DNA from: Elusimicrobia bacterium GWB2_63_16 | Lineage (GTDB): Bacteria; Elusimicrobiota; Elusimicrobia; Elusimicrobiales; UBA9959 | Assembly (NCBI GenBank): GCA_001799715.1 | Contig: MGTZ01000030.1 | Span: forward strand, 1-64,000 | DNA length: 64,000 nt | Reading direction: 5' to 3' | Part shown: positions 33,909 to 34,990 of the stretch, in pieces | How the letters are laid out: the number at the start of each line of letters is the position of its first letter | Position numbering within the stretch: position 1 is the stretch's first letter | Program-made: the position numbers and the translations under genes | The notes under the pieces: generated by a model | Database searches by the model: none | Told to the model about the DNA's origin: nothing | The model's input: only the letters and a program-made list of their open reading frames with translations

Positions 33909-34388
33909 CTAGCCCTTGAATTTGTCCTTGTATTCCCTGCGTATCTCCCGGTCCGCGTCGCGCTTCTTTATGGATTCGTGCTTGTCGGCGGCCTTCTTGC
34001 CTTTGGCCAGCCCCAGCAGCACTTTGGCCCAGCCGTTCTTGAAGTACACTTCCAGCGCCACCAGGGACATGCCCTTGGTGGCCAGCGCGCCGGTGAGCTT
34101 GCGTATCTCGGGGGCGCGCAGCAGCAGCTTGCGGGTGCGCACCGGGTCTATTTCTTTAAGGGTATTATAGGCGTAGGGCGCGATATGGAGGCCGTAGAGG
34201 TATAACCCGTCCTTTTCGGCGCGGGCGAAGGCGGAGGTCAGCGTGGCCTGCTTGAGCCGCAGCGACTTGACCTCGGGGCCCTCCAGGGAGAGGCCGGCCT
34301 CGTAGGTATCGGTGATAAAATAGTCGAACCGGGCCTTGCGGTTGGTCGCTACCTGTTCTATTTTATCCTTCTTTTCCTCTTTCGCCAT
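33909..34388 (-). CDS. smpB: SsrA-binding protein SmpB
   Basis: Delivers tmRNA to stalled ribosomes. 159 residues, normal. Motifs are ATNRKARFDYFITDTYEAGLSL, EGPEVKSLRLKQATL, LYLYGLHIAPYAY and ALEVYFKNGWAKVLLGLAKGKK with the basic C-terminal tail (DREIRREYKDKFKG). The ATG lies 6 bases after the extended -10 TGGTAACAT and lacks a Shine-Dalgarno, so the message is probably leaderless. No tmRNA gene was seen in the window. Confidence 0.97.
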   Translation of the reverse strand: MAKEEKKDKIEQVATNRKARFDYFITDTYEAGLSLEGPEVKSLRLKQATLTSAFARAEKDGLYLYGLHIAPYAYNTLKEIDPVRTRKLLLRAPEIRKLTGALATKGMSLVALEVYFKNGWAKVLLGLAKGKKAADKHESIKKRDADREIRREYKDKFKG

Positions 34389-34416
34389 TGTTTCATGTTA
34401 CCAAATATCCTAAAAT
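34388..34416 (+). promoter_or_regulatory. Candidate promoter reading toward tRNA-Ser
   Basis: TTGTTT, 17-base spacer, TAAAAT on the plus strand. It would start a transcript near 34423 with a leader of about 175 bases full of hairpins before the tRNA. Confidence 0.5.
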
Positions 34417-34422
34417 TGTAAA
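34395..34422 (-). promoter_or_regulatory. Promoter of smpB, leaderless
   Basis: Minus strand TTTACA, 16-base spacer, extended -10 TGGTAACAT, 6 bases to the ATG. It overlaps the divergent promoter candidate for tRNA-Ser. Confidence 0.65.
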
Positions 34423-34445
34423 ACGGTTATGCGGCAGTGTTGTCA

Positions 34446-34590
34446 GGAACTCCTCTCAGGAGGGGTTCAGCGAGCGGGCCGCCAAAGCGGCGGAGCGAGC
34501 GACGACGAAACGGGGAACCTGGGTTCCCCTTGTAGAGCACCCGGCCGACGAAGGCCGGGCCGTTAATCGGCCCCGCGCCAGGCGCGGGGT
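34446..34590 (+). other. Tandem hairpin array upstream of tRNA-Ser
   Basis: No gene. Successive stems: an imperfect stem around 34447-34468; GCCGC/GCGGC at 34478-34491; GGGGAACC/GGTTCCCC at 34512-34529; CCCGGCC/GGCCGGG at 34540-34559; CCCCGCGC/GCGCGGGG at 34571-34589. The GCGAGC motif also recurs. Function unknown. Confidence 0.7.
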
Positions 34591-34599
34591 GCGACAGAG

Positions 34600-34686
34600 G
34601 GAGAGGTGGCCGAGTGGTTGAAGGCGCAGACCTGGAAAGTCTGTATACTCGAAAGGGTATCAAGGGTTCGAATCCCTTCCTCTCCG
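34600..34686 (+). tRNA. tRNA-Ser (GGA anticodon)
   Basis: 87 bases. Acceptor GGAGAGG pairs with CCTCTCC, discriminator G. The anticodon stem CAGAC/GTCTG holds loop CTGGAAA with anticodon GGA, which reads UCC and UCU. A long variable arm (class II) and T-loop GGTTCGAATCC are present. CCA is not encoded. A terminator follows 10 bases later. Confidence 0.96.
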
Positions 34687-34696
34687 TAGCTTTGTA

Positions 34697-34721
34697 AAAA
34701 ACCCGCGAAAGCGGGTTTTTT
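34697..34721 (+). terminator. Terminator after tRNA-Ser
   Basis: AAAAACCCGC-gaaa-GCGGGTTTTTT: perfect stem with a GNRA-type tetraloop and T-run. Confidence 0.9.
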
Positions 34722-34744
34722 GCTGTCAAAGCGAAGGAGAGGAA

Positions 34745-34766
34745 GCGAGCCATAATTATGGCTCGC
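34745..34766. repeat. 22-bp perfect palindrome
   Basis: GCGAGCCATAATTATGGCTCGC is identical to its reverse complement. It could be a protein-binding site or a cruciform; no T-run follows, so it is not a terminator. Confidence 0.85.
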
Positions 34767-34887
34767 GCAGGGATTCGAAAGGCGGAGCCGCGCGTGGAGC
34801 AAAGCGACACTTTCTTGCCCAGCAGGCCGCAGCGGCGAACCGGGGTCGCGGGCGCCGAGGAGCGACGGCGATGAGGCGACCTGTGAC

Positions 34888-34905
34888 CGAATCCCTTCCT
34901 CTCCG
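34888..34905 (+). repeat. Duplicate of the tRNA-Ser 3' end (att-like)
   Basis: CGAATCCCTTCCTCTCCG is an exact 18-base direct repeat of 34669-34686, the T-arm and acceptor end of tRNA-Ser, 219 bases away. Such duplications flank elements integrated at tRNA genes. The interval holds no gene. Confidence 0.8.
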
Positions 34906-34990
34906 AATTCTTTTACCAAAAAATCCGGGTGTCCGGGCGGAAACGCGGGATGCGAAGTCCACCCCGTAAGATTGTCGGACTTAAAAAAAG

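Follow-up and report, generated by a model that had tools for sequence, protein, structure and literature searches.

The hairpin-rich leader that precedes a tRNA-Ser(GGA) gene of Elusimicrobia bacterium GWB2_63_16 is one copy of R1, a structured element of about 150 nt that is absent from Rfam and dispersed in Elusimicrobiota. R1 nearly always lies in gene-sense orientation directly before tRNA genes, tmRNA genes and the SD sequences of protein genes, and is present or absent at the same site in related genomes. Our preferred explanation, to which we would give about half of our confidence, is that R1 is a mobile but non-autonomous RNA element: once inserted, it would be transcribed as a 5′ leader and fold on itself, so that the start of the gene stays free.

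Fold of the leader at tRNA-Ser(GGA)

The window, meaning the whole 64,000-nt stretch of DNA analysed, lies on contig C30; the genome measures 2.87 Mb and is 91% complete. The features around the tRNA gene are as follows.

33909..34388, minus strand: smpB, the divergent neighbour (PF01668, E 3.8e-51)
34388..34416, plus strand: candidate promoter of the tRNA transcript, TTGTTT-17-TAAAAT, overlapping the smpB start region (by eye)
34448..34596, plus strand: R1 structured leader (TCAGGAACTCC ... GCGACAGAG), placed by covariance model; likely full extent about 34443-34599
34447..34468, plus strand: first hairpin of R1, GAACTCCT/AGGAGGGGTTC region (helix 1 pair counts)
34470..34503, plus strand: variable hairpin of R1, 0 to about 40 nt across copies, within conserved AGCGA...AGCGACGA (fold and alignment)
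34512..34529, plus strand: R1 hairpin GGGGAACC/GGTTCCCC (helix 4, A-U to G-C exchanges)
34537..34592, plus strand: 3′ domain of R1, closing stem GCAC/GTGC (helices 5-8)
34600..34686, plus strand: tRNA-Ser(GGA), beginning 3 nt past the R1 end
34698..34722, plus strand: terminator-like hairpin 3′ of the tRNA, AAAAACCCGC GAAA GCGGGTTTTTT (sequence and fold)
34734..34906, plus strand: E3, a second dispersed structured element (about 150 nt), beyond the terminator-like hairpin

The gap between smpB and the tRNA gene holds three perfect GC-rich stems of 7-8 pairs each, namely GGGGAACC/GGTTCCCC at 34512-34519/34522-34529, CCCGGCC/GGCCGGG at 34540-34546/34553-34559 and CCCCGCGC/GCGCGGGG at 34571-34578/34582-34589, together with two more hairpins. 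A leader of 175 nt folds at -92.8 kcal/mol versus -74.8 for dinucleotide shuffles (z -3.9), with 0 of 200 shuffles as good, bearing out the original prediction of a tandem-hairpin leader before tRNA-Ser. That prediction also placed a promoter over that of smpB and had it start a transcript of about 175 bases. The promoter-like block at 34388-34416 is kept in many relatives whether the leader is present or absent, so the hairpins are probably transcribed. A consensus promoter scan did not return TTGTTT-17-TAAAAT at 34388-34416 among its predictions, but given the conservation of the block a start near 34423 with a leader of about 175 nt is plausible. The terminator-like hairpin at 34698-34722 was absent from the output of the same scan.

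The window copy scores 149.6 bits (E 6.9e-31) against the covariance model, having itself been among the sequences from which the model was built. Its G+C content is 0.70, and the closing stem of its 3′ domain encloses three hairpins (34540-34559, 34560-34570 and 34571-34589). Against Rfam 15 the leader had no match at gathering thresholds, and relaxed matches were weak and far below the cut-off.

An alignment of 29 R1 copies has 31 pairs, 14 of which carry changes on both sides. Among 59 further distinct sequences from outside model building, double compensatory changes occur in 27 of the 31 pairs. Covariation in these 59 sequences was 0.356 and did not exceed 0.107 with slid partners or 0.163 with shuffles. 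The alignment had been fitted to the covariance model, a procedure that favours the structure, and the slid controls still paired in about half of their cells. The stems of the original prediction are thus kept by compensatory change. G-U combinations outnumber A-C combinations in R1 pairs (68 versus 8 and 135 versus 26), so the gene-sense strand of R1 is the strand that folds. Covariation and the G-U excess show selection on the sense-strand fold, and covariation this strong suggests selection for function rather than tolerance alone. Both the structure and the linker sequences are kept across families of the phylum, and one U-G pair is invariant. Pairs predicted across the 3′ border of R1 are modestly fewer than with shuffled elements (12.9 versus 16.7; lower in 69 of 95 copies).

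Two further candidate features were rejected. By eye, the first G-run seemed to form a conserved long-range helix with the 3′ strand of the GGGGAACC hairpin, but the register of this helix shifts between subfamilies. A promoter inside R1 (TTGTGG-17-TATAAA), seen in some other genera, is not kept in the genus of the window.

Copies of R1 and their place before genes

The family was traced from a DNA search of relatives, in some of which window positions 34445-34604 recur several times per genome; in 30 places read, the same block of about 150 nt precedes several tRNAs, tmRNA and ribosome-binding sites. The covariance search near other tRNAs that the original prediction had proposed found four copies in the window's own genome (G000), before tRNA-Ser(GGA), tRNA-Ser(GCT), tRNA-Ser(CGA) and tmRNA, the Ser-GCT copy adjoining a duplicated tRNA 5′ end. 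R1 is present in 44 of 121 sampled relatives, all in the window's family, as a multi-copy element with up to 22 copies per genome. Across 341 genomes of the phylum the model matched in 54, of which 11 belong to other families and have full-length but weaker matches; the small-genome family f2 had zero matches in this search. Sequence records with the R1 core are mostly Elusimicrobia/Elusimicrobiales assemblies, such as GWC2_64_44 and GWD2_63_28. Tandem arrays occur, and the best-scoring copy is the gene-proximal one in 5 of 7 arrays.

The 3′ end of R1 lies 1-6 nt before a tRNA or tmRNA in 52 of 95 distinct copies. In another 34, one of which (L103) is a tmRNA by Rfam, it lies before an SD sequence and a start codon, mostly with the start codon 9-20 nt on. 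This rule of position and orientation thus holds for 86 of the 95 copies, compared with 4 of 95 when the reverse strand is read from the other side of the element and 77 of 475 random positions. Three of the nine remaining copies (L063, L126 and L130) adjoin an apparent duplicated tRNA 5′ fragment, three (L136, L149 and L174) are inner members of tandem arrays, and the last three (L145, L179 and L180) have no class assigned. The sample came partly from a DNA query that contained the tRNA-Ser gene and is biased toward tRNA-Ser. Among six model-only matches retrieved from outside the family, four precede tRNAs for Pro, His, Gly and Glu by 3-5 nt, a fifth continues into a tRNA-Arg, and the sixth lies 168 nt before a tRNA-Pro, beside a tRNA-like 5′ fragment.

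Within operons, R1 occupies the gap from the upstream stop codon to the next SD sequence. The genes 3′ of R1 include those for tRNAs, tmRNA, a BMC shell protein, RpiB, an amino-acid-kinase-family protein and a biotin/lipoyl protein. A leader specific to tRNAs could be rejected, with about a third of copies preceding an SD sequence and start codon and others tmRNA. The original interpretation of the hairpins survives in part: the structure is conserved and probably belongs to a transcribed leader, but it is confined neither to this tRNA nor to tRNAs. Because R1 also precedes tmRNA and the ribosome-binding sites of protein genes, in operons too, and is missing at the same site in relatives, a tRNA-processing signal alone is insufficient to explain it.

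Two observations concern the flanks of R1. At five loci (L063, L126, L130, L276 and L262) R1 is followed by an apparent duplicated tRNA 5′ fragment of about 14-27 nt, other sequence and then an intact tRNA; the duplicated fragments look like the mark of an insertion event within tRNA 5′ ends. At L273, positions 1075-1379 give a borderline group I intron match (50.6 bits, gathering threshold 50) that overlaps the 3′ part of a tmRNA gene preceded by R1.

Empty sites and the apparent spread of R1

At five protein-gene loci, relatives keep the gene pair without R1. In one example, an empty site reads ...AAGAAATA|ACGGAGGACTTTAACATG and the filled site ...AAGAAGTA[146 bp]AAGACGGAGGACTTTATCATG. The tRNA-Ser(GGA) site lacks R1 in several relatives and retains just its 3′ part in others. 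In G024 and G028, copies before unrelated genes (tmRNA, accB-like and BMC) are up to 87% identical, and the tmRNA copy of the window's genome is at most 77% identical to the other tmRNA copies compared. R1 appears mobile from its multiple copies, its empty sites, the likeness of copies before unrelated genes and its tandem arrays. On average, two copies from the same site are about as similar (67%) as two copies from the same genome (65%). Inheritance in place is therefore common too; the Ser-GGA copies of G000 and G024, for instance, are 93% identical.

At the BMC-gene site where G028 carries R1 (L095), G030 and G007 (L251 and L242) carry a different structured insert, GCGGTCCGG..., in the same place before the SD sequence, of 156 and 207 nt, respectively. 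The insert of G007 has about 45 additional nt (GGCCGTCTGATGAGCATAGC...), and a relative of this stretch lies upstream of R1 in L165 and L174.

If R1 is mobile in the way we favour, it would insert ahead of the first functional base of a gene, 3′ of the promoter or, in operons, of the upstream stop codon. There its 3′ end would fall 1-6 nt short of a tRNA or tmRNA, or immediately ahead of an SD sequence, and it would become a transcribed 5′ leader. At tRNA genes RNase P would cut R1 off, and in mRNAs it would remain as a folded segment before the SD sequence. It would be tolerated because it is largely self-folded and ends just before the gene, so that neither the RNase P site nor the ribosome-binding site is blocked. 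Transcription, RNase P cleavage and an insulating effect are inferred. As for the means of movement, terminal inverted repeats were not found in R1 (longest exact inverted end match, mean 4.2 nt versus 3.8 in shuffles), and comparison of five filled sites with their empty counterparts showed by eye no evident target-site duplication, the divergence of the relatives leaving the exact ends of R1 uncertain. A search for a mobilising gene covered Y1 transposase and reverse transcriptase, and neither tracks copy number; G077, with the most copies, has no Y1_Tnp match above the cut-off. Two IMG/VR pattern scans together gave one locus, which the R1 model did not match, and thus revealed no link to viruses.

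The main rival, to which we would assign roughly a third of our confidence, is that R1 is a functional cis-acting leader, whether regulatory, stabilising or a cleavage signal at GCGACA, that selection retains just before gene starts; dispersal among sites through recombination or transposition would then be a secondary matter. This reading stays close because the covariation is so strong, and the structure and linkers conserved across families, the fixed distance and orientation to the gene and the invariant U-G pair all argue for it. Against it, the genes 3′ of R1 are functionally unrelated with no common regulon evident, and their orthologues in close relatives do without R1.

Other repeats also lie beside tRNA genes. 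E3 (window 34734-34906; also L004, L010, L204-L223 and L264-L268) consists, in order, of an inverted copy of the tRNA-Ser(GGA) 3′ end split by a CATAATTATG hairpin, a conserved core and a direct copy of the tRNA 3′ end (34888-34905). The same arrangement follows Val-CAC and Arg-TCG in the window's genome, each with its own tRNA's sequence. Changes on both sides were found in 25 of 37 E3 pairs (21 copies), and E3 matches in 129 of 341 phylum genomes, after many tRNAs and in tandem in some genomes. The window copy of E3 contains a small dispersed motif, GTGGAGCRAAGCGACAC (about 34789-34816), which recurs elsewhere in the genome (motif loci L055, L070-L072, L077, L079, L081 and L209). By eye, a further tRNA-downstream repeat, GTGTCCG...GGATA...AGTCCACCCCG, is seen at window 34927-34968 and at L048, L204 and L207.

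R1 could also have spread via RNA, through attachment to the 5′ ends of functional RNAs, or copying next to them, and a subsequent return into DNA. Such a route would explain the invariant sense orientation and the placement at RNA starts, next to tRNA and tmRNA 5′ ends and SD sequences, and fits the absence of inverted repeats. We nevertheless think it improbable: RVT_1 had no match in G000, G024 or G028, despite their 4, 7 and 9 copies, so that R1 lacks in these genomes the partnered reverse transcriptase of a retroelement-linked RNA, and no RNA 5′ end is known at SD positions inside operons. The corollary that R1 would be a bacterial element marking RNA starts, with E3 as a counterpart copying tRNA 3′ ends, is a similarly long shot. 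It is scarcely credible that G+C-rich DNA formed these hairpins by chance. The high G+C of the window copy and the residual pairing of the slid controls speak for such an origin; it is contradicted by the fold z-score, by the dozens of genomes with full-length homologues, by a covariation that far exceeds both controls and by the position counts (86 versus 4 of 95).

Should R1 indeed be a mobile element that becomes a self-folding leader, Elusimicrobiota would be a phylum with mobile structured RNAs, always in sense, right where tRNA, tmRNA and protein genes begin. Such a rule of position would be new for small bacterial repeats; the elements would also form natural 5′ insulators and offer a case in which to study how tRNAs lose their leaders. 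Because filled and empty sites can be matched between related genomes, effects on expression can be tested.

Comparison with known elements

R1 is a real feature that goes beyond chance, a structured RNA element that looks mobile and follows an unusual rule of position. The titles and abstracts of the open-licence literature searched do not describe it. Known MITE-like repeats of bacteria include ERIC/IRU (127 bp), Correia/NEMIS, RUP and YPAL; some are co-transcribed with neighbouring genes and are thought to affect mRNA stability (review, PMC2229807). Filled and empty sites are known for these repeats, and the ones classed there as MITEs carry target duplications as well as terminal inverted repeats (PMC2229807). 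R1 resembles ERIC- and Correia-type repeats in being small, multi-copy, intergenic, self-folding and non-coding, with filled and empty sites. Unlike MITEs it has no terminal inverted repeats that we could find and no clear target duplication, and unlike ERIC- and Correia-type repeats it is always in gene sense, keeps a fixed distance to the gene start and is found before tRNA and tmRNA as well.

The yeast Ty3 and Dictyostelium TRE5/TRE3 elements are autonomous retrotransposons that sit beside tRNA genes, guided by RNA polymerase III factors. Together, R1 upstream and E3 downstream recall these elements in their set place beside tRNA genes, but R1 differs in having no coding capacity and in also lying before SD sequences. 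Synthetic 5′ insulators of the RiboJ type combine a self-cleaving ribozyme with a hairpin by design. Like RiboJ, R1 is a self-folding RNA directly before a ribosome-binding site.
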